Shown one piece after another: positions 1-20,476 of a DNA stretch of 20,975 bases. The stretch lies in IMG/VR virus record IMGVR_UViG_3300037189_014309, positions 1 through 20,975 of that record. One strand, written 5' to 3'. The position numbers and the translations under genes were made by a program. Origin of the DNA: a virus. A model generated the notes under the pieces. That model did no database searches. It saw only the letters and a program-made list of their open reading frames with translations, and was not told where the DNA came from. The first letter of the stretch is position 1, and the number at the start of each line of letters is the position of its first letter.

Positions 1-1
1 C

Positions 2-2960: not shown

Positions 2961-3793
2961 TGTTTAATTTTTTTAAAAAAAAGAAAAGCTGGGTTCGATT
3001 TTATTCTTTAGATCAAAGTATTGCCACAGTTTATCCAGTTACTGAGAATAGACTAGTTGATCGCGATTGGAATGGCCTTGGAGATACCTCAAGGAATCTC
3101 GATCATCAAGGCAAACAAACAGTTCTTAACTGTCCAGCAATCAAACAAATAACCAATATTGGATACGTGCTTAGAGCACCGGCAGATTTTGTTATTAAAA
3201 CAACGGGTAATGGAGTTGACTTGTATTGGCAATCTCCAATATTTTTTAAACGACCCAGTAACAAATATTCTTTTAATAGTGATGAAGGATATTATATTAG
3301 CCAGCATACTCCGCCGCAGACTGAGCCAGTAATACCCACTGACCTTCCAAACACTAATCGTCCAACTTTGCATAGTGCTGTAAAAGTTGAAACACCGTGG
3401 AGAGTAAAGACCAGTGATGATATCGTGTTTTTACAAATACCAGTTTCTTATAACAATGAAGCAAGGTTTACTGCGGCCACTGGTATTGTTGATCCAAAAT
3501 ATATGCATGCCGTTAGTGTTCAACTATTTTGGCATGTCATGGAGGGAGAAACTTTAATCAAAGCCGGTACACCTCTAGTACAATATGTTCCTATTAGTAG
3601 AGAGCTAGTTGCTAAAGGAAATACTGAATTTATTGTTGACGTTGCCGACGAAGTAGATCTTGAAATTGAGGAGGCTTATGTGTTTGCTAACCATAGCCGT
3701 TTTCCAAAATTTGATACTGTAGGTAAAAAAATTAGAGTTATTACTGATCTCTTTAATTTTTACCGAAACAAATATCCCAAATCAAAAATTTAA
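2960..3793 (+). CDS. Uncharacterised protein, paralogue 1 (unk-1)
   Basis: I do not recognise this 277-residue protein with certainty. It is clearly homologous to the product at 16414-17220. Shared blocks are RFYSL near the N-terminus, NCPAI at 57-61, APADF at 73-77, ETPWR at 144-148, RFTAA at 169-173, VQLFW at 187-191 and AGTPL followed by Q-x-VPI at about 202-212. Strand-rich, Trp/Pro-rich text with no signal peptide or membrane segment suggests a cytoplasmic beta-sandwich or cupin-like protein. There is a weak resemblance to DUF6065-type bacterial proteins (Cys-Pro block, then a late hydrophobic strand and an xGxP turn), recalled from memory only. I start it at the ATG at 2960, which overlaps the Nudix stop as TGATG; a TTG three bases upstream is also open. 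Its stop overlaps the stop of the opposing gene. Co-occurrence of both copies with halogenases suggests a part in the same pathway. Confidence 0.8.
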   Translation: MFNFFKKKKSWVRFYSLDQSIATVYPVTENRLVDRDWNGLGDTSRNLDHQGKQTVLNCPAIKQITNIGYVLRAPADFVIKTTGNGVDLYWQSPIFFKRPSNKYSFNSDEGYYISQHTPPQTEPVIPTDLPNTNRPTLHSAVKVETPWRVKTSDDIVFLQIPVSYNNEARFTAATGIVDPKYMHAVSVQLFWHVMEGETLIKAGTPLVQYVPISRELVAKGNTEFIVDVADEVDLEIEEAYVFANHSRFPKFDTVGKKIRVITDLFNFYRNKYPKSKI

Positions 3794-4380
3794 ATTGATA
3801 GTTTAGTCAATGGACTTTTGTTAATATTGCCTTTAACAAAAGTATTAAAACTTAGACTTATTCTAGGAATAGTTCCGTGATAGGGTTCTACTCTATGTTC
3901 AACAGAACTAGGAAATATAACCATAGAACCAGCTGTAGGTAATACTGACCAGCTTCTAGAATTATAAAGATTAGATTCAACTGTGTTAAATTCTATAACA
4001 TCGTATTGACTAGTAATAAATTTAATTTTTCCAGTGTCGCCCTCGGACTGCAAATACACAACTCCGGACAATATAGAATTAGGATGCCAATGCCTATGAT
4101 GTGTTTGCCCAGGTTCTGTTTTATTAAACCAACTTTCAGTTATGTAGATTTCAACGTCTTGACTAGCTGACATTATCCCGTAAAAATATTCTGATATCTC
4201 TCGGGATATGTGTGTTAGTAGATTATCAAATTTTGGATCGCTTAAAACAAATTGAGATTTACTAATTGAATTTTCGTAATTTGGTAACCACTCAACTTCC
4301 GATAAGTCAATGTTACTTACATCTACGTAAGTACTAAACACTGGCTTTGAGAACAAGGGGAATAACATTTTTTCGGGCAT
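3790..4380 (-). CDS. 2OG-Fe(II) oxygenase-like protein, HxH type (OxyA)
   Basis: The 196-residue protein has the layout of the phage/bacterial 2OG-Fe(II) oxygenase family PF13759/TIGR02466: FPLFSKPVF start, an HWHPN loop (His97, His99) followed by SGVVYLQ, a GKIKFI strand, FPSSVEHRVEP (His162) and RISLSFN (Arg173). The distal His and Arg are the usual iron and 2-oxoglutarate ligands. The first metal loop reads H-x-H-P instead of the classical H-x-D. The family would couple 2OG decarboxylation to hydroxylation of an unknown substrate in the cytoplasm. It is the only oxygenase gene apart from the large minus-strand operon and lies head to head with FDH1. A TAGGAA ribosome site precedes the ATG, and a TATAAT-like box and a palindrome lie just upstream. 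It resembles OxyE, OxyI and OxyK of the main operon. Confidence 0.82.
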   Translation of the reverse strand: MPEKMLFPLFSKPVFSTYVDVSNIDLSEVEWLPNYENSISKSQFVLSDPKFDNLLTHISREISEYFYGIMSASQDVEIYITESWFNKTEPGQTHHRHWHPNSILSGVVYLQSEGDTGKIKFITSQYDVIEFNTVESNLYNSRSWSVLPTAGSMVIFPSSVEHRVEPYHGTIPRISLSFNTFVKGNINKSPLTKLSI

Positions 4381-4458
4381 GATGGTTCCTAGAATTTAAA
4401 ATGTGCGCACATTATATGATATATAGTACTACACATAATATTTTTTTAAAGATCTGAC
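4381..4458. promoter_or_regulatory. Divergent intergenic region between OxyA and FDH1 with perfect palindrome
   Basis: This 78 bp gap must hold the promoters for OxyA (leftward), and for FDH1 (rightward) unless that gene is read from upstream. A 14 bp perfect palindrome, AATGTGCGCACATT, lies at 4400-4413. Next to it, on the minus strand, is a TATAAT hexamer (4411-4416), a possible -10 box for OxyA. The palindrome would then sit at about the start point, where a dimeric repressor could bind. The rest is AT-rich, with a T-run at 4440-4446 before FDH1. No consensus late octamer and no good ribosome site for FDH1 are visible. The promoter call is tentative because AT-rich DNA gives chance matches. 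Confidence 0.45.
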
Positions 4459-5925
4459 ATGATAAAATCAATTTGTATTTTAGGAGGCGGCAATGCAGGC
4501 TTAATGACTGCATTATATCTTCGTGCCAGTTTTCCTAACCTCGCTATTACCTTGCTCAAATCAACCAAGATTGGAACAATTGGAGTAGGTGAAGGTAGCA
4601 CAGAACATTGGAAAATGTTTGCAGAAGCAGTTAATATTCAAAATTGGGAAATTATTAAAGAGTGTGGTGCAACACTCAAAGCTGGAATTAAATTTGAAAA
4701 TTGGCACGGCGATGGCACTAGTTATTACCATAGCTTGCCTGAATACATGGCAGTCGATGACCGGTACACTGGCCTACCATATACTATGATGCGCATGATT
4801 GCTGACGGGGTAGGTACCGAAGAACTTCATTGGGAACTTGCTATGCAAGGACTTCATCAGGAACCCTTAGATCAATTATTTTACCAATTCCATTTTGATA
4901 GCGAAAAACTAAATGCATTTTTTGAGCGCAAATGTGTTGAAAGAAATATCAACATTATAGAAACAGAAGTTGCTGATACTGTGATTGACGCTGATGGATT
5001 TGTATCCGGTGTTATTGACACTAATAATGTCACATACTCTGCAGAATTTTTTATAGACAGCAGTGGGTTTCGTAGAGTAATAAGTTCTAAATTAGGATCT
5101 ACATGGGTAGACTGGTCAGAATACCTGCCTATGAATAGTGCTATAGCATTTCCAACACCTTACGAAGAAAAAATACCGCCATATACCCTAGCCAAAGCAT
5201 TGAGCAGTGGCTGGCATTGGCGTAGTCCTGTTCAGCATAGATTTGGTAACGGTTATGTGTTTAGTGATCAGTTCATTACAGAAGATCAAGCTATAGCAGA
5301 AATACAAAAAGAATTTAAAGATCCTATAAAGATTGCACGTAAGGTAAGTTTTGTATCGGGTAAAATCAACAAGGCTTGGATTAAAAATTGTATAAGTGTT
5401 GGCCTAAGCAGTAGTTTTGTAGAACCATTAGAAGCCAGTAGTATTTCTACAACTATACAACAATGCAGATTGTTAGTAGCAGGATTATCAACTTGGGCAA
5501 GAACTGACACTGTTACGGAAAAACATTACAATAAAGAATTTGACGTTATACTAACTAATATTTTAGATTTTATCCAACTGCATTATCTTACACAAAGAAC
5601 TGATTCAGAGTTTTGGCGTTGGTGTAAAAATAATTTAAAACTAACAGAATTTAATGCCGAGCATATAGAAATTTTTAAAAAGAATTTTGTCAATCAACTA
5701 AGTCTTCCAATGTATAACTATTGCATATACGATGCCGTAAATTGGATACAGGTCATGCACGGCCTAAGGATGTTTGATATAGAAAATATTAAAGAACAGT
5801 ATAAAACTCATAGTCATTTAACAGAGCGTTCAATATATGAATGTTCAACTGTACCAACATTAGCTGATGGCGGTTGGTATACTAGTAGAGAAGCAGTTAA
5901 CATTGTAAAGGCAAGAACTGCATGA
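4459..5925 (+). CDS. Flavin-dependent (tryptophan-type) halogenase FDH1
   Basis: The 488-residue protein is of the Trp_halogenase family (PF04820). An N-terminal FAD-binding GGGNAG is at 9-14, followed by GVGEGSTEH at about 42-50. The conserved lysine, expected to guide hypohalous acid (PrnA Lys79), is Lys74 in ATLKAGIKF. A second FAD motif DSSGF is at about 200-204, a W-x-W element (WHWRSP) at 252-257, and VEPLEASSI around Glu325. Such enzymes use FADH2, O2 and a halide to halogenate an aromatic carbon. The W-x-W-x-I-P signature has Ser in place of Ile. The EASS stretch differs from the E-S-T-G of PrnA, whose last two residues help bind chloride. It resembles FDH2 at both protein and DNA level (a 26-base identical run, 5131-5156 against 6597-6622), so the pair arose by tandem duplication. 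The stop overlaps the FDH2 start (ATGA). Halide and substrate are unknown. Confidence 0.92.
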   Translation: MIKSICILGGGNAGLMTALYLRASFPNLAITLLKSTKIGTIGVGEGSTEHWKMFAEAVNIQNWEIIKECGATLKAGIKFENWHGDGTSYYHSLPEYMAVDDRYTGLPYTMMRMIADGVGTEELHWELAMQGLHQEPLDQLFYQFHFDSEKLNAFFERKCVERNINIIETEVADTVIDADGFVSGVIDTNNVTYSAEFFIDSSGFRRVISSKLGSTWVDWSEYLPMNSAIAFPTPYEEKIPPYTLAKALSSGWHWRSPVQHRFGNGYVFSDQFITEDQAIAEIQKEFKDPIKIARKVSFVSGKINKAWIKNCISVGLSSSFVEPLEASSISTTIQQCRLLVAGLSTWARTDTVTEKHYNKEFDVILTNILDFIQLHYLTQRTDSEFWRWCKNNLKLTEFNAEHIEIFKKNFVNQLSLPMYNYCIYDAVNWIQVMHGLRMFDIENIKEQYKTHSHLTERSIYECSTVPTLADGGWYTSREAVNIVKARTA

Positions 5926-7436
5926 TTAATAACATTTGTATTCTAGGTGGTGGTACCGCAGGATTAATATCAGCATTAATGATTAAATCTGCATTTCAAA
6001 ATTTAAAAGTCACTGTTATTGAAAGCAGTAAAATTGGCATCATAGGTGTAGGCGAAGGTAGTACAGAACATTGGTCTAAATTTATGCACCATATTAATAT
6101 CAGTACTCCTGATATAGTCCGAGAAACTGATGCTACATTTAAACTTGGTATTAAATTTACCAACTGGCATGGCGACGGCACTAGTTATTATCATAGTTTA
6201 ACCGAAGAGTATGGTGGCGTATCTGATAATCATGGGATACGATATTCCTGGCTTAGGATGCTAGTTGAAGATTGGGATCCTATCGATACTGTACACGATC
6301 CGGTATTTAAACGTGGTCGATTCCTCGAACCGTTAGCAACTACCGTACACCAATATCATTTTGATACGCACAAACTTAATAATTATCTTCATAAACTATG
6401 CTCCAAAAGAGGCATTTCTGTTATTGATGCCGAAATAAACGATGTAATTTTAGATGAGCAAGGATATGTTAAAGAACTGATAGACGCAGACAACAACACA
6501 TATCCCTACGAATTTTATATTGATGGTAGCGGGTTTAATAGAATAATTTCTAAAAAACTAGGAGCTAAGTGGATTGATTGTTCAGCTCAATTGCCAATGA
6601 ATAGTGCTATAGCATTTCCAACTACAAGAACTGATGAAATTCCAGGTTACACTGAATCAACAGCATTGAGTAGTGGATGGTGTTGGCGCATTCCGACACA
6701 AAATAGATACGGCAACGGCTATGTGTTTTGTGATGATTTTATTTCTGAAACACAAGCATATGATGAAGTTAGTATGCATTATAAAAAATTAGGTATTGCT
6801 GATAATTTAGAAATTGGTAAAAAAGTTAAATTCAACGCAGGCTATGTTGATAAATTTTGGATTAAAAATTGTGTGTCGGTAGGACTAAGTGGAATGTTTG
6901 TTGAGCCGTTAGAAGCATCAAGCATTGGAGCCACTATACAGCAAATTGCCGGGCTTGCAGGACAAATTTTTTATTATGAACGCGGCAATGATGTCATTTC
7001 TAATTTGTATAACACTACTTTAGAAGATGTTGCTAAAAATATTATTGATTTTATTCAATTGCATTATTTTACACAAAGAACTGATTCAGAATTTTGGCGT
7101 TGGTGCAAAAATAATATAGCAATGACAGAATTTAACAGTCAATATTTAGAGCATTTTAAACAACATAGCGTAAATGGTTTACCATTTTTAAATAGACCGT
7201 TAATAATGTTCGGAGATATGAACTATACTCAAGTTATGCATGGACTACGAATGTTTAAAAACAACGAATATTTAAAATCAAAATATAATAATCATATTAA
7301 AGAAGCATACGAACATATAGCAGACACAACACTAAGACAAGGTGCTCGAGCCGATGATACCATTCCATGGTTTACTCATCGCGCCGCCCTTGAAGAATTA
7401 AAAAATAGAGGAATGAGCATTGAATACAAATTCTAA
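5922..7436 (+). CDS. Flavin-dependent (tryptophan-type) halogenase FDH2
   Basis: The 504-residue paralogue of FDH1 has the same features: GGGTAG at 9-14, GVGEGSTEH at about 42-50, the catalytic-type Lys74 in ATFKLGIKF, a DGSGF FAD motif near 201-205, WCWRIP at 253-258 (a full W-x-W-x-I-P match) and VEPLEASSI with Glu331. The W-x-W-x-I-P motif is used to separate flavin halogenases from flavin monooxygenases, which need not apply to FDH1. Translation starts by an ATGA overlap with FDH1, so the two are likely made together and may form a pair acting on different positions or substrates. The two diverge most at residues 90-140, where substrate specificity would be expected to differ. No flavin reductase gene is nearby. 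Confidence 0.93.
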   Translation: MINNICILGGGTAGLISALMIKSAFQNLKVTVIESSKIGIIGVGEGSTEHWSKFMHHINISTPDIVRETDATFKLGIKFTNWHGDGTSYYHSLTEEYGGVSDNHGIRYSWLRMLVEDWDPIDTVHDPVFKRGRFLEPLATTVHQYHFDTHKLNNYLHKLCSKRGISVIDAEINDVILDEQGYVKELIDADNNTYPYEFYIDGSGFNRIISKKLGAKWIDCSAQLPMNSAIAFPTTRTDEIPGYTESTALSSGWCWRIPTQNRYGNGYVFCDDFISETQAYDEVSMHYKKLGIADNLEIGKKVKFNAGYVDKFWIKNCVSVGLSGMFVEPLEASSIGATIQQIAGLAGQIFYYERGNDVISNLYNTTLEDVAKNIIDFIQLHYFTQRTDSEFWRWCKNNIAMTEFNSQYLEHFKQHSVNGLPFLNRPLIMFGDMNYTQVMHGLRMFKNNEYLKSKYNNHIKEAYEHIADTTLRQGARADDTIPWFTHRAALEELKNRGMSIEYKF

Positions 7437-8967
7437 AATTGTTATCCTGGGCGGTGGCACAGCGGGTTGGCTGACAGCGTTGTTTATACAGCGCAACTGG
7501 CCTAAAACTGAAATTTCTGTTATTGAAGATCCTAACCGGCCACCTATTATTGCTGGCGAAAGCGGCAATACTACATTTGTAACTTTATTACGGCATCTTA
7601 AGATCGACAACGAAGACTTTATTAGAAAAATAAATGCCACTCCAAAACTAGGAGGAAAATTTACAGATTGGGGAGCATTAGATACAGAATTTATTCATTG
7701 CTTACAAACTGACTACGCTCCTTGGTTGGACGGGTGGACCGATTATGTTGAAAAAAACGATGGTGAAGAGTTAACCGTTGGAACTCTACTCAGCATAATG
7801 ACTGCTGAAAGAGCCAAGGATACTTATTTAAAAACACTTATTGGCAACAATACGCCATTAGCCGATGCATTTTTTGCCAACTATTATATTAAAGAAAATA
7901 AAGTTCCGTTTGGTGCAACTAGCGAAATACCTTGCACACCTATGTGGCATTTTGAGAGTAGAGGCGCTGCCGCATATTTTAAACAAACAGGTCTTGATCG
8001 AAAAATCAATCTAATTGAAGGCAAATTTCAAGAAGCAGTTCGCAACGAAAAGGGTGACATTACTGCTATTAAGTTAGATGGCGATAGAACTATTGAAGGC
8101 GATTGGTTTTTTGATTGTAGTGGATTTGCTCGCTTGCTCATGGGCAAAACCATGGAGGAGCCTATTGTTGATAATACAAATTATTTTCCTGCTAGATCGG
8201 TTGTTGCATGGTGGGACGAACCATGCCCATGTGTAACTACTAATGCAACTGCTATGAAATACGGTTGGTCTTGGAACATCAATATACGTAACAGATCGGG
8301 CAACGGATACATCTATGATCCAGATCATATCAGCTTAGATCAAGCTGTTGAAGAAGCAAGTCAACGATTTAATAAAAAAATAGAACCAATAGCTAACTTT
8401 AGTTTTATGCCAGGCATGATGCGTCGAGCATGGAGAAATAACGTGTTTGCTATTGGATTGAGCAGTGGATTCTTAGAGCCGTTAGAAGCCAACGGTATTG
8501 CTGTTATTGTCGAAAGTTTGTTTGGCATACAAGATTACTGGAATCCTGCAACTAAAGATTATCCTACCACTACAGTTAATAGATTTAATGATAGGATATG
8601 GAAAATCACTGAAGATATTAGTGATTTTCTTACACTCCATTACCGGGGAAATCGAACTGATACCGAGTTTTGGCGCAGTCACAAGTACGATGCTTTTAGA
8701 ATTCCTGATTCTTTAAGATCTAAACTAGATAGCTGGAAAGAATTCTTTTATAATAACAAGCCTGAACCGTGGGCAACTGGGTATTCTTCCACTGCATGGT
8801 TAATGGTTATTCAAGGATTAGGAATTTTTAACCATGCGCCGCAATCAGAAATGCAAAAAAAGTTTCTACCAATAGGAAAAAATGTGCTAAATATAAACAA
8901 ACTAAAGTATCAAAAGTTAGTTGAGCCGTTTTGGACCATTGAAGAGTGGTTAAAGAAAACTACATAA
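7420..8967 (+). CDS. Flavin-dependent halogenase FDH3, divergent subgroup
   Basis: This 515-residue halogenase is distinct from the other four. GGGTAG lies at 11-16, but the usual GVGE-S/G-ST block is replaced by AGESGNTTF at 45-53. The conserved lysine is Lys76 in ATPKLGGKF, the FAD motif DCSGF is at 232-236, the tryptophan motif is WSWNIN at 283-288 (Asn in place of Pro), and the late motif is LEPLEANGI with Glu356. Key chemistry residues are kept, so it should still be a halogenase, probably with a different substrate. The start is a TTG at 7420: no in-frame ATG precedes the FAD motif, and an AGAGGA ribosome site lies 7 bases upstream. It overlaps FDH2 by 17 bases. It could instead be a flavin monooxygenase that has lost halogenation, given the altered W-x-W-x-I-P. 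Confidence 0.87.
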   Translation: MNTNSKIVILGGGTAGWLTALFIQRNWPKTEISVIEDPNRPPIIAGESGNTTFVTLLRHLKIDNEDFIRKINATPKLGGKFTDWGALDTEFIHCLQTDYAPWLDGWTDYVEKNDGEELTVGTLLSIMTAERAKDTYLKTLIGNNTPLADAFFANYYIKENKVPFGATSEIPCTPMWHFESRGAAAYFKQTGLDRKINLIEGKFQEAVRNEKGDITAIKLDGDRTIEGDWFFDCSGFARLLMGKTMEEPIVDNTNYFPARSVVAWWDEPCPCVTTNATAMKYGWSWNINIRNRSGNGYIYDPDHISLDQAVEEASQRFNKKIEPIANFSFMPGMMRRAWRNNVFAIGLSSGFLEPLEANGIAVIVESLFGIQDYWNPATKDYPTTTVNRFNDRIWKITEDISDFLTLHYRGNRTDTEFWRSHKYDAFRIPDSLRSKLDSWKEFFYNNKPEPWATGYSSTAWLMVIQGLGIFNHAPQSEMQKKFLPIGKNVLNINKLKYQKLVEPFWTIEEWLKKTT

Positions 8968-8970
8968 ATA
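8963..8970 (+). promoter_or_regulatory. T4-type late promoter octamer CATAAATA
   Basis: CATAAATA overlaps the FDH3 stop codon and lies 20 bases before the next ATG. It matches the NATAAATA form of the late promoter box described for T4-like cyanophages and T4's TATAAATA with one change. A start 6-7 bases beyond the box would fall just before the AAGGAG ribosome site at 8978-8983, a geometry that suits a short leader. It would let the 78-residue gene be made late and independently of the halogenases. Confidence 0.5.
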
Positions 8971-8990
8971 CTTATAGAAGGAGAGCATAA

Positions 8991-9227
8991 ATGCCAATTT
9001 ACCAAGGAATTTACAGAGATGGGGACAACCCAAATACCCATAAACTTCATGTTTATAGAGTATTTTGTGAAGCAAACAGCAGACAGGATGCAGATGATAT
9101 TTTTTACTCAAACCACGGACCAAAGTGGGTTGTAGCAGGAGCTCAGAAAGTTCTTGACGAATCTACAGTACCTGAAGATACTGTATTTGAAGTATTAAAT
9201 CCTAATCACGATTTTCCACTACCTTAA
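8991..9227 (+). CDS. Small protein of unknown function (78 aa)
   Basis: I do not recognise this protein. It is soluble, mixed in charge, with the text YQGIYRDGDNPNTHK, an AxSRQDADDIFY helix-like stretch, GPKWVVAGAQKV and an acidic end with NPNHDFPLP. It has one Trp, three Tyr-containing segments and one Cys, and no signal peptide or membrane span. The start is well supported: AAGGAG lies 7 bases upstream, the best ribosome site in this half of the window, behind a late-type promoter box. It is last in the halogenase strand, and its stop directly abuts the stop of the opposing operon. Possible roles include a small virion or regulatory protein, or a substrate or carrier for the enzymes around it. 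None of these is shown by the sequence. Confidence 0.78.
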   Translation: MPIYQGIYRDGDNPNTHKLHVYRVFCEANSRQDADDIFYSNHGPKWVVAGAQKVLDESTVPEDTVFEVLNPNHDFPLP

Positions 9228-9833: not shown

Positions 9834-9842
9834 ATTCGCTCC

Positions 9843-13489: not shown

Positions 13490-14204
13490 GATTAATCCTA
13501 TAATAGTTTCTATCAATTGAGTTAGATTGGGGATCTGTTGGAAATCTATTCCAACATGGAACGCTCATACTTAATCGTTGGCCTTTAGGATATGCACAAT
13601 GCAACATTCTTGACGGTATGTATAAAGCATCTCCAGGTTTAAGAGTAACATGTAGTGCTACTTCTAGTTGATCTTCTGTTACTTTATTATTCACAATACC
13701 AACTTTGTGCATATACGAAACTCTATTATTAAAAACTTTCCACTCGGTTTCACCTTCTACTTGAAAAATAAAATTTGCCGAGTAGTCATCGTGTATAGGA
13801 AATGATGTTGCATCGTCTAATCCGCAGTAGACATGGATTGCGGCATTTACTGCAAATATACTTTCTATTTCTTTTAACAACTCATTAGTTTTTAAACTAT
13901 GAAATGCATAATTAGTAATAACGAAACCCCATCCTTCATTAATTCGTTTTGCACACCATGCTTTATCTTGTATTTTTTTGTTCCATATCCATGATTTTGA
14001 ATGTTCTGGTATTTCAACCTTCATGTCTTCATTGGGGTTGATCATTTCAAAGAAATAAAATTGAGGATTATTAAGACAGTATTCAACGTCATCCCATGAC
14101 AGATATTCTCCGGGGTTTTTCATCAATCCTGGAAAATAATGAGGCTTGTCCTCATATAAAAGATTAGTCTCTTGTAATATTCTGTATGCTATATCGCTCA
14201 TCAT
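13473..14204 (-). CDS. JmjC/cupin-type 2OG oxygenase (cupin_4/cupin_8-like)
   Basis: The 243-residue protein is of a different oxygenase class from its neighbours. Its motifs are ATSFPIHDDYSANFIFQVEG with His138 and Asp140, ETEWKVFNN with Lys156, LKPGDALYIPSRMLHCAYP with His202, and QRLSMSVPCWNR. This is the JmjC-type layout seen in bacterial ribosomal oxygenases and cupin_4/cupin_8 proteins, which hydroxylate protein side chains (for example YcfD on a ribosomal protein Arg). That precedent makes a protein or peptide target plausible here. Two adjacent ATG codons exist; the second (14201) is 6 bases from AAGGA and may be the real start. It overlaps OxyI by about 40 bases, the largest overlap in the operon. 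Confidence 0.84.
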   Translation of the reverse strand: MMSDIAYRILQETNLLYEDKPHYFPGLMKNPGEYLSWDDVEYCLNNPQFYFFEMINPNEDMKVEIPEHSKSWIWNKKIQDKAWCAKRINEGWGFVITNYAFHSLKTNELLKEIESIFAVNAAIHVYCGLDDATSFPIHDDYSANFIFQVEGETEWKVFNNRVSYMHKVGIVNNKVTEDQLEVALHVTLKPGDALYIPSRMLHCAYPKGQRLSMSVPCWNRFPTDPQSNSIDRNYYRINHDRNI

Positions 14205-14796
14205 CCGTCCTTATAATTTTCATATTAAAAGAAATTGAAATTCTTTCCTCATCTGTTTCATTTGATGAAACACCGTGCGGCAACCATCCTGGAAACATGA
14301 TCAATCTGCTAGTTACTGGATCATAACTAATTGCCGATGCGCTGATAGGTTTAAAATTTTTCATAGGAGCAAAAGATACTGTACAAAAATCTTGCATAAA
14401 ATTTTTATACACAGTAAATTTACCCTGACCTGGTTTAGCCTTTACATAAAATGCGCCAGATACAAATGAACCATCGTGCATGTGTACCATATTTGAATTA
14501 AATTTATAATTAATGTTAAACCATAAATTTTCTAAAACAGGAAAACACCATTCTTCGTCAAAGCCAAAATCTCTTATACAGTTGTGCGTCTGTTCTATGA
14601 TCTTATCTTCGAGTACTTTTAACTCTGGAAATATACCTGGCCTAAAATCTTTACTTTGCCAACCACCGTCATTGCTTAATTTTCTCCCAACTGGATCCTG
14701 TTCTTTTAAAGAATGACATAGTTTGACCATGTCAGATGTGTCAATACCTGTGTCTTCCCACCAAACTGGTGTTGGAAAGTATAAATCAAAATTCAT
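14164..14796 (-). CDS. 2OG-Fe(II) oxygenase, PF13759/TIGR02466-like, HxH type (OxyI)
   Basis: The 210-residue protein begins with LYFPTPVWWED, the classic start of this family. It continues with LWFNINYKFN, VHMHDGSFVSGAFYVKA (His105, His107, Asp108), GQGKFTVYKN, LIMFPGWLPHGVSSN with His174, and ERISISFNMKI with Arg185. SG-x-FYV after the metal loop and the late FPGWLPH are strongly diagnostic. As in OxyA, OxyE and OxyK, the metal loop reads H-x-H. The gene sits between OxyJ (4-base overlap) and the JmjC-like gene. The C-terminus (DDERYSIQNITRD) is polar and probably disordered. Relatives are common in marine phages, mostly without known substrates. Confidence 0.87.
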   Translation of the reverse strand: MNFDLYFPTPVWWEDTGIDTSDMVKLCHSLKEQDPVGRKLSNDGGWQSKDFRPGIFPELKVLEDKIIEQTHNCIRDFGFDEEWCFPVLENLWFNINYKFNSNMVHMHDGSFVSGAFYVKAKPGQGKFTVYKNFMQDFCTVSFAPMKNFKPISASAISYDPVTSRLIMFPGWLPHGVSSNETDEERISISFNMKIIRTDDERYSIQNITRD

Positions 14797-15590
14797 AGGT
14801 TAAAAAGATCCTTTACACGTTTAGGATTTTCGTGACTAAATGCAAATGTATGGCTCCAACGAAAATCTACATTTTCGCTAACATAGGCTGTATGATGTAC
14901 ATTAGCTTGATATACTGTCATAGTTTTTTCTATCGATGGCGCGGTTCCTAGATATTCAAATCCCCATCTAGATAATTCTTCATTACTAAAATTAAACCAA
15001 GCATCTGCTCTTGTTGGGGTTGTTGACATTGAAGTCCACTCTTCAAACAACAGATGGGTTGTATCTACCTGGAAGTCGTATATTTCGTCATGCATTGTTC
15101 CGTGATACTTATATAACTTTGTTCCGCTGTCTTGTATATCGTGCCCAGTAAACCATAAGTTAGCCACCATTCCGTAAACATAGTCTATGTGGGGTATTCT
15201 CCAACAAGTAATAGGTCGACTTCTTTCTTTGTAATAAACATTACCCCATTCATGTAGTTGCGGACCATACCAATCAGAAGTAATTAGTTTTGCATACATG
15301 TCTCTAATTACTCCGGACGGTGTTTTATAAATCCATTCTGGTAAATGAATAGTGTCAAACGGATTAGGTGCTCGGTATTCGGGATAACTATTATCGATTT
15401 GTATAGGAAATGACGCTATTAAATTTTTAAAAATTTCATAACTATCATTTTTAAATGGATTATCAACTAACCAATATCCTACACCGTAGCCTAAATCTAC
15501 ATATTCATATTCTAATTCATCAACTGACTTCATTTCAATCACAGAATGAAAATTATTAGAATCAGGATAACAGTATTTTAAGTTAATCAT
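14793..15590 (-). CDS. Large 2OG-Fe(II) oxygenase-like protein (OxyJ)
   Basis: At 265 residues this is the largest oxygenase of the cluster. It has ITCWRIPHIDYVYGMVANLWF with His134 and Asp136, SGTKLYKYHG, a long Trp- and Asp-rich middle (EEWTSMSTTP, DAWFNFSNEE), then TVYQANVHHTAYVSENVDFRWSHTFAF, giving the distal His232 or His233 and Arg244. The overall order (VDNPF start, H-x-D, SGT, HH-x-AY, R-x-SH-x-F) recalls OxyF/OxyG, with an insertion, so it may be a distant member of the DUF6445-like group. All ligands are present. It starts on an ATGA overlap with OxyK and ends on one with OxyI. No ribosome site is visible, so expression should depend on coupling. Confidence 0.82.
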   Translation of the reverse strand: MINLKYCYPDSNNFHSVIEMKSVDELEYEYVDLGYGVGYWLVDNPFKNDSYEIFKNLIASFPIQIDNSYPEYRAPNPFDTIHLPEWIYKTPSGVIRDMYAKLITSDWYGPQLHEWGNVYYKERSRPITCWRIPHIDYVYGMVANLWFTGHDIQDSGTKLYKYHGTMHDEIYDFQVDTTHLLFEEWTSMSTTPTRADAWFNFSNEELSRWGFEYLGTAPSIEKTMTVYQANVHHTAYVSENVDFRWSHTFAFSHENPKRVKDLFNL

Positions 15591-16180
15591 TTTATATTAA
15601 AAGTCATAACAATACGCTCTTGATCAGTATTGTTTGGCTCTACCCTATGTTTTAAATAACCTGGAAAAATCAATACATCGTTTTCTTCACATGGCAGTGT
15701 TCTATATAAAGTTTCTTCTGGATGAATTGGAAATAAATTTTTATGATACTCTAAAGGATCTTTAAATTGTATAAATCCACTATTAGGAGGAAGTTTTATA
15801 TACGAAGCAACTACAAAGGTTGCATTATTATGATTGTGTTCAACCGTGAGGCCACCGTTCATGTGTCGGTTAAACCAAGAGCGAGTAACTTCGGAATAAG
15901 TATAAGAAAATCTATGCTCTCGTCTTATATCTGCAATTTTTCCGCCAAGCCAATTTTGAAAATTTGCTAATTCGTCCCAAGTGTGAGGTTGGAGATTTTC
16001 ATTGACTGAGACAGTCGATAACGCATCGCCATATTCTAATTTAGAATTTTCGTCTACTTGGCCAAATAAATTTTGAATTTTTGGAAGTAAAACTTCTTTA
16101 TTAAACTCGTATTTAAATTTATAAATTTCTGGCGGGAAAAGAAACAATCCGCCATTATTCAGCTGTAACACCTTCTTCAA
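15587..16180 (-). CDS. 2OG-Fe(II) oxygenase-like protein, HxH type (OxyK)
   Basis: The first oxygenase of the operon encodes about 195 residues. Motifs are LFLFPPEIYKFKY at the N-terminus, YSEVTRSWFNRHMNGG, TVEHNHNNATFVVASYIKL (His115, His117), SGFIQFKDP, LIFPGYLKHRVEPN with His178, and ERIVMTFNIK with Arg189. It is closest in style to OxyA (FP-x-H-RVEP near the end) and OxyI. The longest frame opens with TTG at 16180, but GGAG lies directly against that codon; a GTG at 16171, nine bases from the GGAG, is better spaced and may be the true start. The gene overlaps the 84-residue gene upstream. The metal loop again reads H-x-H. Substrate unknown. Confidence 0.8.
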   Translation of the reverse strand: MKKVLQLNNGGLFLFPPEIYKFKYEFNKEVLLPKIQNLFGQVDENSKLEYGDALSTVSVNENLQPHTWDELANFQNWLGGKIADIRREHRFSYTYSEVTRSWFNRHMNGGLTVEHNHNNATFVVASYIKLPPNSGFIQFKDPLEYHKNLFPIHPEETLYRTLPCEENDVLIFPGYLKHRVEPNNTDQERIVMTFNIK

Positions 16181-16409
16181 CTCCAGTAAGAGTTTCGATG
16201 GCCAATGTTAGACCCATAATAACCCCCTCCATTTTTAAAAGATCGGCAGTTATTTCTTGTCTCTTTGAAAAATCAATACTAGTAACACCGTATGGATTAA
16301 GTTTTACGTTAGAAAATTCTTCTTCTAATTTTTTAAGTTCTTCTTCTCCATCGGCTTTTTGAATTTTAACTTTTTCAATAGTTTCTTGTAGTTTGCTAAT
16401 AACAGTCAT
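16155..16409 (-). CDS. Small helical/coiled-coil protein (84 aa)
   Basis: I do not recognise this protein. Residues 1-35 are strongly heptad-like and charged (SKLQETIEKVKIQKADGEEELKKLEEEF), suggesting a coiled coil. A central turn, LNPYGVTSIDFSKRQ, is followed by a second helix (EITADLLKMEGVIMGLTLAIETL) with a hydrophobic face. There is no Trp and one Tyr. It looks like a helical hairpin that could form oligomers or bind one of the enzymes. The ribosome site AAGGAG, 7-8 bases before the ATG, is the best in the minus-strand operon, so it is probably made in larger amounts than its neighbours. It lies between unk-2 and OxyK. A scaffold, chaperone or substrate role is possible but not shown. Confidence 0.75.
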   Translation of the reverse strand: MTVISKLQETIEKVKIQKADGEEELKKLEEEFSNVKLNPYGVTSIDFSKRQEITADLLKMEGVIMGLTLAIETLTGVEEGVTAE

Positions 16410-16413
16410 GTTG

Positions 16414-17220
16414 TTATCTCCTTGTTTTATACTTATTTAAAATAGTTGTCACTCTCTGTAATCTAGAAGACAATTTATCATGTTGTAAAAATACACAGTT
16501 AGATGCGTAATTAAACTCTCGTTCTTTTTGAATATCTGTATCTGTAGCATTATCTATAGTTACATCATACGAACTTGTACTTAGTGCATCTCTTGGAATT
16601 GGTACAAATTGGCATAAAGGAGTTCCGGCACGTACTATAGTTTCGCCGTTCATGACTTTCCAGAATAGTTGAACGTTAACAGTATGACCATATCTAGGAT
16701 CTAGAATTCCAATGGCTGCTGTAAATCTACTTTCGTTACTGTATGTAACTGGCATCTGAATTAACACAATATCTTCGCTAGCATCAATCCGCCAAGGGGT
16801 TTCTAATTTGATAACGGTTTTAACTGTAGTTTCTGGATCGTCAACTATTGGCTCTGTTTGAAGTCGGCCATGTAATACTACATAAGAACTAGGCGAGTGA
16901 TCTGAAGACTTGTTAAATTGATATGGTTCTAACCATTCTATTGATACTCCGTCTCCATTTGTTTTAATTTTAAAATCTGCAGGAGCGGTAACTATCCAAC
17001 CTGAATTTGTAATCTTATTGATTGCAGGACAATTTTTAGTTGCAGGAACATCAGGATGTTCGTGAGTATTTTTAAAATTTCGATCTAACGAAGATGAACG
17101 TATTACAGGAAATAACTGCGCAACACCAGGCGTTAAAGAGTAAAATCTAATAAAAGGTTTTTTCTCTTTACGCCAGCTGCCAAATAACCATTTACAGAGC
17201 GTGGTCATCTTTACCGCCAT
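16414..17220 (-). CDS. Uncharacterised protein, paralogue 2 (unk-2)
   Basis: This 268-residue protein is the homologue of unk-1 at 2960-3793. Shared blocks are IRFYSL, NCPAINKITN at about 63-71, APADF at 79-83, QTEP, LETPWR at 139-144, SRFTAAIGILDPRY, VQLFWKVM at 183-190 and AGTPL-x-QFVPI at 198-208. It lacks any nucleotide-binding, metal or membrane motif that I can name. The N-terminus has a short Lys/Arg/Trp-rich lead that differs between the two copies. Two in-frame starts exist (17220 and 17208); the first has a weak AGAG upstream. It overlaps the end of FDH4, so it is translated with the halogenases. This placement supports a role tied to halogenase function, for instance substrate presentation or product binding, which is inference. 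Resemblance to DUF6065-type proteins is tentative. Confidence 0.8.
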   Translation of the reverse strand: MAVKMTTLCKWLFGSWRKEKKPFIRFYSLTPGVAQLFPVIRSSSLDRNFKNTHEHPDVPATKNCPAINKITNSGWIVTAPADFKIKTNGDGVSIEWLEPYQFNKSSDHSPSSYVVLHGRLQTEPIVDDPETTVKTVIKLETPWRIDASEDIVLIQMPVTYSNESRFTAAIGILDPRYGHTVNVQLFWKVMNGETIVRAGTPLCQFVPIPRDALSTSSYDVTIDNATDTDIQKEREFNYASNCVFLQHDKLSSRLQRVTTILNKYKTRR

Positions 17221-18808
17221 AGATATTATCTCTTAGATATTCATAATGGCTTGGCAGTTTTTTAACATAGTCTATGACAAAGTCTCTGTATTCTTCATAT
17301 CTGCGTTTTGCATATCCAATTTCTTCTTGTTTTCGATTCTGATCCATTCTAGTTCCGTTAACAAAAATTAATTCTTTAGTTGAAATTGATTTAACACCCA
17401 TGCCTGCGGCAATAAACATATTACCCACATAATCTGCAGGATATGATTGATTGCTTGCAATATTTCCAAAGAAGTTTGGATATTGACCTTGTGTTGGTAA
17501 AAACTCGTTGAACATTTCTGGACAATATTCGTTATGTTCTGTACACCAACGCCAATATGGAGTATCCATTCTTCTTGACATTGCATAGTGCTGACTTACA
17601 AAATCTCTAAATCGACATACTTCGTGTTCTACAGCCAAATTAAATCCTTCGCGTTCTGCTCGGGTAACATAACCTTCTCGGCGATTTAGTGCTTCAACTA
17701 GTTTAATAATATTTTCATGAGTCGTTAATAGTCCTGTTGACTCCAATGGTTCAACAAATCCGTAACTTAGGCCTACGCCTACAACATTCTTAACCCATGC
17801 TCTACGTCTGCGACCATGTTTAATTACAATATTAAACATTTCTGCATTTTCGGCACGTTCTTTACTACCTGTTGTTGCTAGATGATTTCGGAATTCACGC
17901 TTGGCTTCTTCGTCCGAAGTAAATCTAGATGAATATACATAACCTGTACCAATACGATTCCATAATGGAATATTCCAAACCCACCCGTTGCCAAGTGCAT
18001 GACAGTCTGTTACATTGTGCATTTCTTTTTCACGATCTTCATATGGAATTCTGCAAGCCCATGCACGATCATTAGCAAGATATTTGTCAAACGGTCTAAA
18101 CTCTGATCCCATCCATTGTTCAAGTAACAAGGATTTAAATCCTGTGCAATCAATCCAAAGATCAGATGTAAGGACTGTACCGTCTCTTAATAAAATGTCT
18201 GTTAAGTATTCTAAGTTATTTTTCTTAAAAGAATGTACTTCACCTTCAATGTATTTTACACCATTTGGAATGGCTATTTTGTTTTTAAGGTACTGACCAA
18301 ACAACGTAGCATCCATGTGATAAGCAGTATCCCATTTAAAATCATAATTACGTAGTATACCTTGTTCGTTTTTAGATTGTTTATTGTATTTGGCCAACAT
18401 AGTGTTGCCTGTACAGTAAAACTCTGCAAAAGTCTCCGGAGTATATTCATCTGGGTACAGCGTTGCCAGTTCAGACCATGCCTGATGTGCGCTAGGTTTG
18501 TCAGTAAAGTCTAGTCCTGCACTAAATGGATATTCGAAACTAGTTCTATCGTTGTCTCTAAAATTTGTAAATCTAATTGAGTTTTTATAAGTGGCATTAC
18601 ATTCTGCCATCCAATCTTCGTCTTTGAGTCCTAGTATACCTAAAAATTTATTAATATGGCCTAGGGTACTTTCGCCCACTCCTACAGTTCCAATTCTTGC
18701 CGACTCAACTAGAGTAATATCAAGATGGGGGCATAGTTTAGAAAGAGCGGCTGCGGTCATCCAGCCTGAGCTTCCGCCGCCGATGATAGTTACTTTATTA
18801 TAGTGCAT
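17192..18808 (-). CDS. Flavin-dependent (tryptophan-type) halogenase FDH4
   Basis: I start this halogenase at the ATG at 18808, preceded by AAGGA with 6 bases spacing, which gives 538 residues, the same length as FDH5. A longer frame opens at 18844 but has no support. GGGSSG is at 10-15, GVGESTLGH at about 43-51, the conserved Lys75 in ATYKNSIRF, DCTGF at about 220-224, WVWNIP at 276-281 (full W-x-W-x-I-P) and VEPLESTGL with ESTG at 356-359, matching the Glu346-Ser-Thr-Gly of PrnA that contacts substrate, lysine and chloride. This is the canonical halogenase signature. It belongs, with FDH5, to a different subgroup from FDH1-FDH2. It is separated from FDH5 by 39 bases and overlaps unk-2. Confidence 0.94.
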   Translation of the reverse strand: MHYNKVTIIGGGSSGWMTAAALSKLCPHLDITLVESARIGTVGVGESTLGHINKFLGILGLKDEDWMAECNATYKNSIRFTNFRDNDRTSFEYPFSAGLDFTDKPSAHQAWSELATLYPDEYTPETFAEFYCTGNTMLAKYNKQSKNEQGILRNYDFKWDTAYHMDATLFGQYLKNKIAIPNGVKYIEGEVHSFKKNNLEYLTDILLRDGTVLTSDLWIDCTGFKSLLLEQWMGSEFRPFDKYLANDRAWACRIPYEDREKEMHNVTDCHALGNGWVWNIPLWNRIGTGYVYSSRFTSDEEAKREFRNHLATTGSKERAENAEMFNIVIKHGRRRRAWVKNVVGVGLSYGFVEPLESTGLLTTHENIIKLVEALNRREGYVTRAEREGFNLAVEHEVCRFRDFVSQHYAMSRRMDTPYWRWCTEHNEYCPEMFNEFLPTQGQYPNFFGNIASNQSYPADYVGNMFIAAGMGVKSISTKELIFVNGTRMDQNRKQEEIGYAKRRYEEYRDFVIDYVKKLPSHYEYLRDNIYGGKDDHAL

Positions 18809-18847
18809 AATTTGTCCTTGTTTTTGCGTTATATTTAACCACAATTA

Positions 18848-20464
18848 TCATGGTGTATTATCTTTTCCGCCATATATATTTTCTTTAAGAAATTCATAGT
18901 GGCTTGGTAGTTTGTCAATTATGTTAGTTACATATTCTTTGTATTTGTAGTATTGTCTTTTAACATAGTCAAGTTCTTCTAGTTTAGTAGTTTGCTGGAA
19001 TTTACTTCCGTTATGTAAAATTAATTCTTTAGTAGATACCGGTTTTACTCCCATGCCGGCGGCTATGAATAATGCCGCAACAAAATTGTTGTTAGGATAT
19101 ACTCTGTTCAATGTTATACTTCCAATCAAAGAAGTATATTGAATATGTTGCAGTTGGTAATCTCCAATCATTCCAGGACAGTATTCATGTTCTTCAGTAC
19201 ACCACTTCCAATAAGGGGTGTCGTCGCGCATTGATAATGCATAATGCTGGCTAACAAAATCTCTAAACTTTATAACTTCATTTTCTACAGCAAAATTAAA
19301 CCCTTCTTTTTCAGTGCGAGTCACTACACCTTTACGTCGATTTAGTATTTCAACTAATTTTGTAACATTTTCATGCGTTGTTAACAATCCTGTGGATTCA
19401 AGAGGTTCAACAAACCCATAACTTAGTCCCACTCCAACTACATTCTTAATCCAAGCACGATGTCGACGACCATGTTTGATGTCTATATGAAACATTTCTG
19501 CACGTTCTGCACGTTCTGCAGATCCAGTCGTAGCCAAATGTTTTTTAAACTCTTCTTTGGCTTCTTCTTTTGAAGTAAATTTAGAAGAATACACATATCC
19601 TGTACCAATACGATTCCATAAAGGTATGTGCCAAACCCATCCATTACCAAGTGCATGGCAATCTGTATAGTTGTGCATTTCTGCTTCAGCATCTTCGTAA
19701 GGCAATCTACAGGCCCACGCAGAATCATTGGCCAAATAGTCATCAAATGATTTAAATTCAGACCCCATCCAGTGTTCTAATAATAACGATTTAAATCCTG
19801 TGCAATCTACCCATAAGTCGGCAGTTATAGTTTGCCCGTCAGATAGTAATATTTCACTAATATAACCTTGACTATCTTTAACATGGGAAACAACATCACT
19901 TTCTATATAGGTCATTCCGCTGGGTAGAGCAATTTTATTTTTTAAGTACTGTCCAAATAGTTGTGCATCTACATGATATGCAGTATCCCATTTAAAATCA
20001 AAATGTCTTAGATGATTTTTTTCGTTTTTTGTTTGTTTGCATTTATCTGACAGCATGGTGTTTACTGTAGCATAAAACTCTGCAAATGTGTTAGGGGTAA
20101 ATTCGTCTGGATAAAGAGTTGCTAACTCTGACCATGTGGCAAGACCGCCTGGTTTATCAGTAAAATCTAAACCTTCGCTAAAAGGATATTGGAAACTGGT
20201 GCCGTCATTTTCTCTAAAATTTGTAAATCTAATACCATTTTTGTAAGTGGCGTTACAAGTCTGCATCCAATCTTTGTCTTTAAGATCTAGCAAATCTAAA
20301 AATTTAGTAATATGGCCTAGAGTACTTTCACCAACTCCTACTGTTGATATAGAAGGAGATTCAACTAGGGTTAACTTTATATGGGGACATAATTTGGCTA
20401 GGGCGGCAGCGGCCATCCATCCAGAACTTCCCCCGCCAATAATTGTGACTGTGTTTACTCTCAT
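18848..20464 (-). CDS. Flavin-dependent (tryptophan-type) halogenase FDH5
   Basis: The 538-residue protein is a close paralogue of FDH4, with long identical peptide runs throughout. Signatures are GGGSSG at 10-15, GVGESTLGH, Lys75 in ATYKNGIRF, DCTGF, WVWHIP at 276-281, GRRHRAWIKNVVGVGLSYG, and EPLESTGL with ESTG at 356-359. All elements expected of an active FAD-dependent halogenase are present. It is the first gene of the minus-strand operon, next to an exact TATAAATA box that ends only 4 bases before the ATG, and has no clear ribosome site. The two copies differ most near residues 100-115, 190-200 and in the C-terminal 100 residues, so they may differ in substrate. Reduced FAD must come from a reductase outside the window. 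Confidence 0.94.
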   Translation of the reverse strand: MRVNTVTIIGGGSSGWMAAAALAKLCPHIKLTLVESPSISTVGVGESTLGHITKFLDLLDLKDKDWMQTCNATYKNGIRFTNFRENDGTSFQYPFSEGLDFTDKPGGLATWSELATLYPDEFTPNTFAEFYATVNTMLSDKCKQTKNEKNHLRHFDFKWDTAYHVDAQLFGQYLKNKIALPSGMTYIESDVVSHVKDSQGYISEILLSDGQTITADLWVDCTGFKSLLLEHWMGSEFKSFDDYLANDSAWACRLPYEDAEAEMHNYTDCHALGNGWVWHIPLWNRIGTGYVYSSKFTSKEEAKEEFKKHLATTGSAERAERAEMFHIDIKHGRRHRAWIKNVVGVGLSYGFVEPLESTGLLTTHENVTKLVEILNRRKGVVTRTEKEGFNFAVENEVIKFRDFVSQHYALSMRDDTPYWKWCTEEHEYCPGMIGDYQLQHIQYTSLIGSITLNRVYPNNNFVAALFIAAGMGVKPVSTKELILHNGSKFQQTTKLEELDYVKRQYYKYKEYVTNIIDKLPSHYEFLKENIYGGKDNTP

Positions 20465-20468
20465 GGTT

Positions 20469-20476
20469 TATTTATA
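20469..20476 (-). promoter_or_regulatory. T4 late promoter octamer TATAAATA upstream of the FDH5 operon
   Basis: The minus strand reads TATAAATA here, an exact match to the T4 late promoter box, placed after the terminator of the preceding gene and right before the first gene of the 11 kb minus-strand operon. If start-site spacing follows T4 (box at -13 to -6), transcription would begin at about the ATG of FDH5, giving a leaderless or nearly leaderless message. The position argues for late expression of the whole operon. A chance match cannot be excluded in AT-rich DNA. Confidence 0.55.

Follow-up and report, generated by a model that had tools for sequence, protein, structure and literature searches.

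The flavin halogenase VirX1 of cyanophage Syn10 is known as a single biocatalyst, and some phages glycosylate their own tail or capsid proteins with enzymes of their own. Expansions of 2-oxoglutarate (2OG)-Fe(II) oxygenase genes occur in S-SCSM1 (24 genes) and S-CREM1 (10 genes), and a proteusin brominase peptide-tailoring cluster, in the parts of its description consulted, contains a flavin halogenase that acts on a ribosomal peptide (PMC10858898). We have analysed a viral DNA of 20,975 bases (IMG/VR record IMGVR_UViG_3300037189_014309; the whole record, classed as linear, a fragment, and called the window here) in which five flavin halogenase genes and twelve oxygenase genes accompany three protein families termed D, s and c, and have compared it with viral contigs in which such genes follow c and a glycine-rich tail-fibre family, A. 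By computation the block is a conserved unit in which orthologues of the halogenase, of D, of s and of the 2OG genes keep one arrangement, and this ordered halogenase-oxygenase block, tied to A fibre genes in some large phages including cultured marine ones, suggests that phages modify their own host-binding parts.

The halogenase encoded at 17192-18844 is a close relative of VirX1 (PDB 6qgm, E 5.7e-192) and that at 18848-20464 is 70% identical to the former. Syn10 has its own A, c, second halogenase place and D around VirX1; whereas VirX1 is known singly, its type belongs here to a module that also comprises D, s, oxygenases and tail-fibre genes. The oxygenases are of the same Pfam types as those of S-SCSM1 and S-CREM1, and S-CREM1 holds the same block, but the consulted parts of the two reports treat these expansions as separate auxiliary metabolic genes (AMGs), with no block, order, A/c link or late promoter (PMC9602691, PMC9964418). 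Unlike proteusin-type clusters, the window has no evident precursor peptide or protease, and its enzymes would act on a structural protein of the tail. Phage-encoded glycosylation is alike in that a phage modifies its own virion proteins with its own enzymes, but differs in being sugar transfer, whereas here a dozen or more enzymes would oxidise and halogenate. Single parts, namely VirX1, cyanophage prnA and the 2OG expansions, are described in papers which, in the parts consulted, treat them as separate auxiliary genes concerned with antibiotics, host metabolism, nitrogen status or DNA repair (PMC3037559, PMC9964418, PMC10452541, PMC2984593, PMC9602691, PMC9146016). In the open PMC literature, covered mostly as titles, abstract starts and passages, halogenase and 2OG genes were not found as one block or tied to tail fibres. 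We rate as new the ordered system and its tie to A and c, not the enzyme folds, and we infer its function.

A conserved block of halogenase and oxygenase genes

The 25 open reading frames (ORFs) of the window were scanned against Pfam and PHROGs. They include two converging operons: on the minus strand c, halogenase W, halogenase V, D, s and then eleven oxygenases, and on the plus strand halogenases P, Q and R followed by a protein of 78 amino acids (aa). The twelfth oxygenase and a second D copy lie between halogenase P and a NUDIX gene. The parts of the block are as follows.

20540-20974, minus: c (phrog_1787 in PHROGs), small protein truncated by the contig end; C-terminal tail ...PAWVRYPGWKGY
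18848-20464, minus: halogenase W, VirX1 type (PF04820, 356.8 bits)
17192-18844, minus: halogenase V, VirX1 type (PF04820; match to VirX1 as above)
16414-17220, minus: D (phrog_7084 in PHROGs), relative of DUF6065 proteins, predicted dUTPase fold
16155-16409, minus: s, small conserved protein (84 aa) between D and the 2OG run, recognised by homology
15587-16180, minus: 2OG no. 1 (PF13759; HxH...H)
14793-15590, minus: 2OG no. 2 (phrog_1644/3234; HxD...H; no Pfam match)
14164-14796, minus: 2OG no. 3 (PF13759; HxH...H)
13473-14204, minus: JmjC-type oxygenase no. 4 (PF08007, E 2.7e-15; HxD...H)
12902-13516, minus: 2OG no. 5 (PF13640/phrog_274; HxD...H)
12202-12909, minus: 2OG-like no. 6 (PF20043, DUF6445/phrog_1644; HxD...H)
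11594-12205, minus: 2OG-like no. 7 (PF20043, DUF6445/phrog_1644; HxD)
10983-11597, minus: 2OG no. 8 (PF13759; HxH...H)
10382-10990, minus: 2OG no. 9 (phrog_274; HxD...H; Pfam matches below cut-off only)
9843-10385, minus: 2OG-like no. 10 (phrog_2696; HxH...H; no Pfam match)
9228-9833, minus: 2OG-like no. 11 (phrog_2954; HxD...H; no Pfam match)
4459-5925, plus: halogenase P (PF04820)
5922-7436, plus: halogenase Q (PF04820)
7420-8967, plus: halogenase R (PF04820)
3790-4380, minus: 2OG no. 12 (PF13759; HxH...H; three homologues only)
2957-3793, plus: second D copy (phrog_7084 in PHROGs; 41% identical to the first)

The first-pass annotation, made from the letters of the window, had counted five complete flavin halogenases, twelve double-stranded beta-helix oxygenase-like genes and two copies of an uncharacterised family, and all three counts are borne out, the last family being phrog_7084 (2957-3793, plus, and 16414-17220, minus). 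The five halogenase ORFs have no internal stops and match PF04820 at 293-368 bits (cut-off 21) over nearly its full length. GGGxxG (GxGxxG), T-x-K and PLE are kept in all five and form invariant columns in eight aligned sequences; we take the T-x-K lysine to be the catalytic lysine and PLE to hold the glutamate, after PrnA, and WxWxIP to be the halogenase signature. The last is exact in three of the five, reading WHWRSP in 4459-5925 and WSWNIN in 7420-8967. A PDB search of two of the enzymes placed 17192-18844 closest to VirX1 and 5922-7436 nearer PrnA, the latter sharing 24% identity with the VirX1-type pair, whereas W and V are so similar to each other that the pair looks like a recent duplication. 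Flavin halogenases require reduced flavin, and no flavin reductase is present among the Pfam matches of the window, so that supply by the host is assumed.

Twelve cupin-type (2OG/JmjC) oxygenases are recognised by Pfam, PHROGs and ligand motifs; for 9228-9833, 9843-10385, 10382-10990 and 14793-15590 the assignment comes from PHROGs matches together with conserved ligand motifs; of these, 9228-9833, whose family phrog_2954 bears the label 'ferrochelatase', is a putative 2OG enzyme by motif only. Seven of the twelve have HxD as the first two ligands and five have HxH; HxH also occurs in the solved structure 3bvc of the PF13759 type and hence is not a sign of decay. Among 3 to 64 homologues per subfamily, with the C-terminal His of no. 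7 (11594-12205) left out of scoring, the first two ligands are invariant in 11 of the 12 subfamilies and kept in 22 of 25 sequences of the twelfth. The Arg after the C-terminal His, a residue associated with 2OG, is present in all homologues (63/64 in one subfamily) in 10 of the 12 and is variable in no. 11, no. 7 being outside this scoring too. The JmjC protein scores 56.5 bits on PF08007 (cut-off 22), keeps its ligands in 55/55 homologues and has the histidyl-hydroxylases NO66 and MINA as its nearest solved relatives by sequence. The earlier description of the ligands as intact stands with respect to conservation within subfamilies; it needs amending in that HxD and HxH enzymes are to be told apart and WxWxIP is altered in two halogenases. 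Recent tandem amplification of a single 2OG gene was considered and rejected, as the genes fall into separate subfamilies, which have orthologues in other phages; only the VirX1-type halogenase pair looks recent. The PHROGs labels 'DNA endonuclease V', 'ferrochelatase' and 'minor coat protein' attached to 12902-13516, 10382-10990, 9228-9833 and 12202-12909 look wrong for oxygenase-type proteins, and such labels also stand in the RefSeq records of S-RIM44 and syn9.

Recurrence of the block was followed in viral contigs with three alignments as queries, one each for D, the VirX1-type halogenases and the P/Q/R type; the scans gave loci L015-L250, being the best 80 of 216, of at least 590 and of at least 584 relatives, respectively. 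Together with the window and nine phage stretches (L006-L014) there are 246 loci in 172 groups, formed at >30% shared 31-mers. Gene calling in these relied on a simple script, and assignments were made by phmmer, the seeds being taken from annotated phages and from the window itself. All groups were fetched by halogenase or D queries or come from halogenase-bearing phages, and the counts are not population frequencies. Among the 171 groups outside the window and within the stretch covered, 81 have at least two halogenases, 56 at least three, and 50 at least three plus at least five 2OG genes. The first-pass annotation had named a chimeric assembly, or relatives with these genes only singly, as findings that would speak against its proposal; the latter is contradicted by these 50 groups and a chimera is rejected, since L187, L189, L177 and others show the same layout as the window. 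In other layouts (L166, L216, L233, L242), halogenases and 2OGs are interspersed without A or c.

When each 2OG gene is labelled by its best-matching window copy, the window order (c, halogenase, D, s, 2OG subfamilies 1-11) is kept in 34 of the 37 D-led runs outside the window with at least six labelled 2OGs, and each of the three others (L054, L055, L113) has one inserted or displaced gene. A further 14 runs of at least six 2OGs but fewer than six labels, including syn9 and S-CREM1, were left out; 13 of their label lists are in order, L091 being the exception. Junctions between 2OG genes overlap or abut in 540/609 cases (median overlap 4), halogenase and D overlap by a median of 26, and A and c are separated by a median of 18 nt. 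Purifying selection is evident in all 22 gene families measured, median pairwise ratios of nonsynonymous to synonymous substitution (dN/dS) being 0.035-0.195 (3 to 216 pairs per family, four families with at most 10). The proposal that the set is under selection as a unit is upheld by this order, by the junctions and dN/dS values and by the conserved ligands. Of the 47 groups, window included, in which D is followed by at least six 2OGs and a further 1.5 kb or more, 35 have convergent halogenases; syn9 and S-CREM1 are among the other 12.

The first-pass annotation cited single halogenases and scattered 2OG oxygenases as known from marine phages. This is incomplete: some cultured phages carry two halogenases in tandem, and syn9, S-CREM1, S-RIM44, P-TIM40 and Sf-FR1 all carry the block. 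In syn9, c, two halogenases, D and s are followed by gp45-gp54, nine of which match oxygenase seeds; in S-CREM1 a single halogenase, D and s are accompanied by nine annotated oxygenases, the JmjC type among them; S-RIM44, P-TIM40 and Sf-FR1 have shorter sets, which in S-RIM44 and Sf-FR1 lie two small genes before gp13-gp14-gp15, and Pelagibacter phage HTVC008M has a split version. D matches 14 phage records and by coordinates lies directly behind a halogenase in each. Halogenase, D, s, c and JmjC proteins of the window are 47-60% identical to those of S-CREM1 (59.7% for halogenase W) and 2OG no. 2 is 40% identical, while s is 52-53% identical over 64 aa to its S-CREM1 and syn9 counterparts; against S-RIM44 and Sf-FR1 the values are 45% for the halogenase, 35-41% for D and 26-29% over ~165 aa for gp15. 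The second halogenase at the same place in syn9, S-RIM44 and P-TIM40 is more distant, at 34-40% to the window copy. The module is thus common to two phage lineages, cyanomyoviruses and jumbo T4-superfamily phages, and would have moved between them.

Linkage to the tail-fibre genes A and the small protein c

The strongest functional clue is provided by A and c genes lying off the contig. In related contigs c is usually preceded by up to three, mostly three tandem, copies of A, a glycine-rich protein of ~270 aa, with larger fibre genes before A. The A genes, like the presumed target genes other than the truncated c, lie off the window contig. A is a tail-fibre family, PF21722 being matched by 5/5 A proteins scanned and phrog_863 ('tail fiber assembly') by one scanned; it has conserved His, Asn and Gly, as in SGHGES, GANRxNQH and GHPQGG, and its profile found a single match in PDB at E 0.55, that is, none. 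Among 50,697 phage records, A matches 20 and c the same 20 plus one partial. By hit coordinates all 20 records with A, about nine distinct phages by grouping, have a VirX1-type halogenase behind it, some after another halogenase.

Selection of viral loci by either protein gives a corresponding picture. Among loci selected by c (the best 80 of 210 relatives, 37 groups), A lies within two genes upstream in 74/74 with room and a halogenase within three genes in 70/70 with room. Among 79 loci selected by A (from the best 80 of at least 190, 39 groups), c is next in 72/72 and, in loci with room (37 groups), a same-strand halogenase lies within 3 kb in 58/58. Of 82 c genes in the halogenase- or D-selected groups, 77 have a same-strand halogenase within three genes.

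Two sequence elements lie between c and the first halogenase of the window, where we take the T4-type late promoter consensus to be TATAAATA.

20469-20476, minus: TATAAATA, T4-type late promoter motif, the sole exact copy within the window, 12 nt upstream of the start codon
20494-20523, minus: terminator-like hairpin with a T run, in the gap separating c from the first halogenase, identified from the sequence

From a motif only 12 nt before the start codon, the window message would be almost leaderless. In the jumbo form of the module a hairpin of this kind is present in 24 of the 32 c-halogenase gaps of at least 40 nt, window included. The exact motif occurs in 15 of 54 c-halogenase gaps outside the window, in each case 31-36 nt upstream of the start codon; its overall density would predict 0.14. 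In the 172 groups there are 247 exact sites, 151 of them 8-90 nt before a same-strand ORF, which is c in 33 cases, a halogenase in 23, an A-type gene in 18, a 2OG gene in 9, gp13 in 5, a fibre gene in 3, terminase in 2, sheath in 2, portal in 1 and unassigned in 55. The motif is absent from the c-halogenase gaps, 14-39 nt long, of the five cultured phages read and was found exactly in 0/40 second operons (P-Q-R type). A sigma-70 and terminator scan of window bases 1-20000 was near shuffle level. The motif distribution suggests that the module is expressed late.

Candidate substrates of the block

We favour, with about even confidence, the reading that the block is one late tailoring module of T4-superfamily phages, which hydroxylates and halogenates the phage's own A and c tail proteins. 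Linkage, order, constraint, late motifs and enzyme families are computed; from them we infer enzyme activity, A and c as substrates and a recognition role for D and s. The flavin halogenases would put Cl, Br or I on aromatic side chains of A and/or c during virion assembly, and the Fe(II)/2OG and JmjC enzymes would hydroxylate side chains of the same proteins, His, Asn/Asp, Pro and Arg being natural candidates. Each enzyme may have a site to itself, either in the conserved Gly/His/Asn-rich region of A or in the tail of c with its Trp and Tyr, and D, with its predicted dUTPase fold, and s might, as a guess, present the substrate. The outcome would be a host-binding tip stabilised or chemically altered beyond the genetic code, and in the jumbo lineage the convergent P-Q-R operon with its small protein would add halogenation. 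In support, the first operon usually lies directly behind A and c, late motifs precede c, A or a halogenase in many groups, and fibre-side products are present in S-SZBM1 virions. The relationship of the JmjC protein to histidyl-hydroxylases and the conserved His, Asn and Gly of A are likewise consistent with protein-type chemistry. A virion protein was among the candidate targets proposed earlier; the A/c linkage now favours it. The presumed target genes lie off the contig.

A wider proposition is more tentative, and we put it somewhat short of evenly balanced: that this is the first virus-encoded multi-enzyme oxidation and halogenation pathway for virion proteins, with up to 12 oxygenases and 5 halogenases, each with its own site, acting on the A adhesin and its companion c, that A and c are the native substrate of VirX1, and that the whole module was transferred together between cyanomyoviruses and those jumbo T4-superfamily phages that infect other hosts. 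On this view cyanophage 'auxiliary' genes, VirX1 included, form a single ordered system whose proposed substrate can be named and tested. If true, host-binding tips would be built with chemistry beyond the genetic code, which bears on adsorption and stability, and chemists would gain halogenases and oxygenases matched to protein substrates.

Several observations weigh against modification of A and c. In the literature searched, no published report of a modified residue was found. The Trp of the c tail is invariant in 40 aligned c proteins, and tail Trp/Tyr are conserved, but this tail is confidently folded in the predicted model (predicted local distance difference test, pLDDT, 90-95), so the Trp may be kept for structure. 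For c there is no PDB match at E 0.001, and four matches at that value in a viral library, namely syn9 gp40, two proteins without a telling name and an uncharacterised S-RIM2 protein. The predicted fold of D hints at nucleotides, and a late hot spot could gather unrelated genes. Five of the 82 c genes depart from the linkage: A and c converge from the other strand in L185, L191 and L192, the halogenase precedes c in L128 and lies further off in L156. A VirX1-type halogenase is present with no c in the stretch covered in 39/172 groups, some of which end at contig ends, and of 26 phage records that have this halogenase type (38-60% identity, 99-100% covered) six are without A and c, these being S-B64 and S-H35 (twice each), Sf-CH11 and Sf-CH1a. 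The A and c tests are not independent, as they draw largely on the same contigs, many of which are also in the first scans, and on closest relatives only, with alignments from halogenase-bearing loci. The correlation of 2OG number with His in A (rho 0.38, 55 groups) is unspecific, Asp, Phe, Ala and Thr being as high or higher, and residue counts of A were set aside as a weak clue. Finally, S-SZBM1 virions contain the fibre-side products _51 to _54, whereas A (_48, _49), c (_47), the halogenase (_46), the 2OGs (_42 to _44) and _50 are absent from the 30 virion proteins listed in Table 1, the part of that report consulted, for one phage and a standard search (PMC9146016). S-SZBM1 A would yield 8-9 tryptic peptides of 7-30 aa; A may be scarce in these virions, lost, or missed through modification.

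That the enzymes instead produce or alter a small molecule or a peptide in late infection, for example a halogenated indole, a signal or an antibiotic-like compound protecting the infected host, we consider unlikely. Both flavin halogenases and 2OG enzymes are characteristic of natural-product pathways, yet no scaffold-building gene (nonribosomal peptide synthetase, polyketide synthase or cyclase of ribosomally synthesised and post-translationally modified peptides, RiPPs) is present among the 25 ORFs of the window or named in the stretches of cultured phages consulted, the A/c linkage is left unexplained, and eleven separate constrained 2OG families are many for one small product. An antibiotic idea for cyanophage prnA is in print, in the consulted parts of PMC9964418 and PMC2984593. 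Both c and s were considered as RiPP precursors; c has the conserved Trp/Tyr tail, yet that tail is folded in the model, and no protease or RiPP recognition domain occurs among the Pfam matches of the window.

A host component such as a surface protein, the ribosome or lipopolysaccharide, altered late against superinfection or for lysis, is a still less likely target. JmjC relatives are known as a family to modify ribosomal proteins, with NO66 and MINA nearest here, and syn9 has 2OG genes outside the block too; the late motifs, however, are common to structural genes, and the linkage to A and c points elsewhere. The set is found in records with and without psbA (1/29 long records with it), and hence probably in phages of different hosts, which also speaks against this target.

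Hypermodification of nucleotides or DNA, with halogenases and 2OGs acting on pyrimidines, draws mainly on D and appears improbable. The AlphaFold2 model of D (16414-17220; mean pLDDT 92, 42-sequence alignment) gave 17 Foldseek matches at E <=0.001, all dUTPases or dCTP deaminases (best E 8.4e-5), with TM scores up to 0.68 by target and 0.37 by query, and aligned with a dUTPase at Z 10.3 over 126 residues (root-mean-square deviation 4.3); a dUTPase fold is therefore predicted. Asp82 (42/42), Asp174 (98%) and Gln204 (93%) are conserved, in what we take to be a resemblance to dUTPase motifs, and a NUDIX gene lies nearby. That gene, however, belongs to the gp15 neighbourhood of jumbo phages, the window has no thymidylate-synthase or hydroxymethylase-like Pfam match, and the JmjC protein is nearest to protein hydroxylases. 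Least probable of all are separate AMGs, steering nitrogen status by 2OG consumption or serving DNA repair, gathered at a variable site, as proposed by Sullivan 2010 (PMC3037559, in the part consulted) and in keeping with the insertions between structural genes usual in cyanophages (PMC2984593, likewise), since the fixed order (34/37 runs), the distinct subfamilies with conserved ligands, purifying selection and late motifs all speak against them and a 2OG sink would need one enzyme.

Neighbouring genes, phage lineage and minor observations

The remaining genes of the window are these.

2-1057, plus: virion structural protein (phrog_11591 in PHROGs), truncated by the contig end, a neighbour
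1057-2529, plus: long gp15 (tail sheath stabiliser) of jumbo-phage type (PF16724), a neighbour outside the module
2511-2960, plus: NUDIX hydrolase (Pfam scan), neck-side neighbour
8991-9227, plus: small conserved protein, 78 aa, at the 3' end of the second halogenase operon (homologues, dN/dS)

The block adjoins a phage neck gene, as noted in the first pass, in the form of gp15. The window gp15 is closest to those of Sinorhizobium phage Phosso (469 kb), PA5oct-like phages (~287 kb) and Atu_ph07 (490 kb), its nearest relatives being from phages of 284-490 kb. On this sequence evidence the window phage is probably of jumbo T4-superfamily type, and it is in this sense that the earlier term 'T4-like', right as to the superfamily, should be read. 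Long gp15 is present at 44-64% identity in 13 of the 14 long related records searched, the fourteenth (G016) giving a weak match, and in these 13 lies about 1.4 to 11 kb by coordinates from the nearest halogenase. A NUDIX gene is also annotated at gp15 in several PA5oct-like phages. With gp15 so placed and the psbA/psbD family (PF00124) present in 1/29 records chosen by length, a cyanophage origin of the window is unsupported. The protein at 8991-9227 (median dN/dS 0.11) has no convincing family match and has 49 relatives in the 246 loci, most of which close the second halogenase operon at its 3' end.

Halogenases were also met in other settings. Locus L014 (MT835646.1, human faecal sample) is an unannotated 23 kb contig with two halogenase genes ~9 kb apart, and four Campylobacter phage records match the VirX1-type query. 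Relatives of D in genome contigs amount to 10 loci, including at least three phage-like contigs (L251-L253) and DUF6065-type proteins. Bacterial and archaeal relatives score on DUF6065 (PF19541), L258 above the cut-off and L256, L257 and L259 just below, whereas the window copies have no Pfam match at E 0.1. One of these loci, L251 (Nonlabens xiamenensis NZ_RMVE01000006.1, 104323-125135), has a P-TIM40-like region of fibre, halogenase, D and 2OG genes in the stretch read; its 188 kb contig is deposited with a flavobacterial genome and probably represents a phage within that assembly. In a Dehalococcoidia metagenome-assembled genome (L255, 9803-11117), a D-like gene, itself without a Pfam match, adjoins an oxygenase gene of the PF13640 family, an instance of a D-2OG pair outside phages. 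In the haloarchaeon Halospeciosus flavus (L259, 3987-12021), a DUF6065-like gene follows a stretch bearing Baseplate_J and precedes an integrase gene, perhaps within a provirus.

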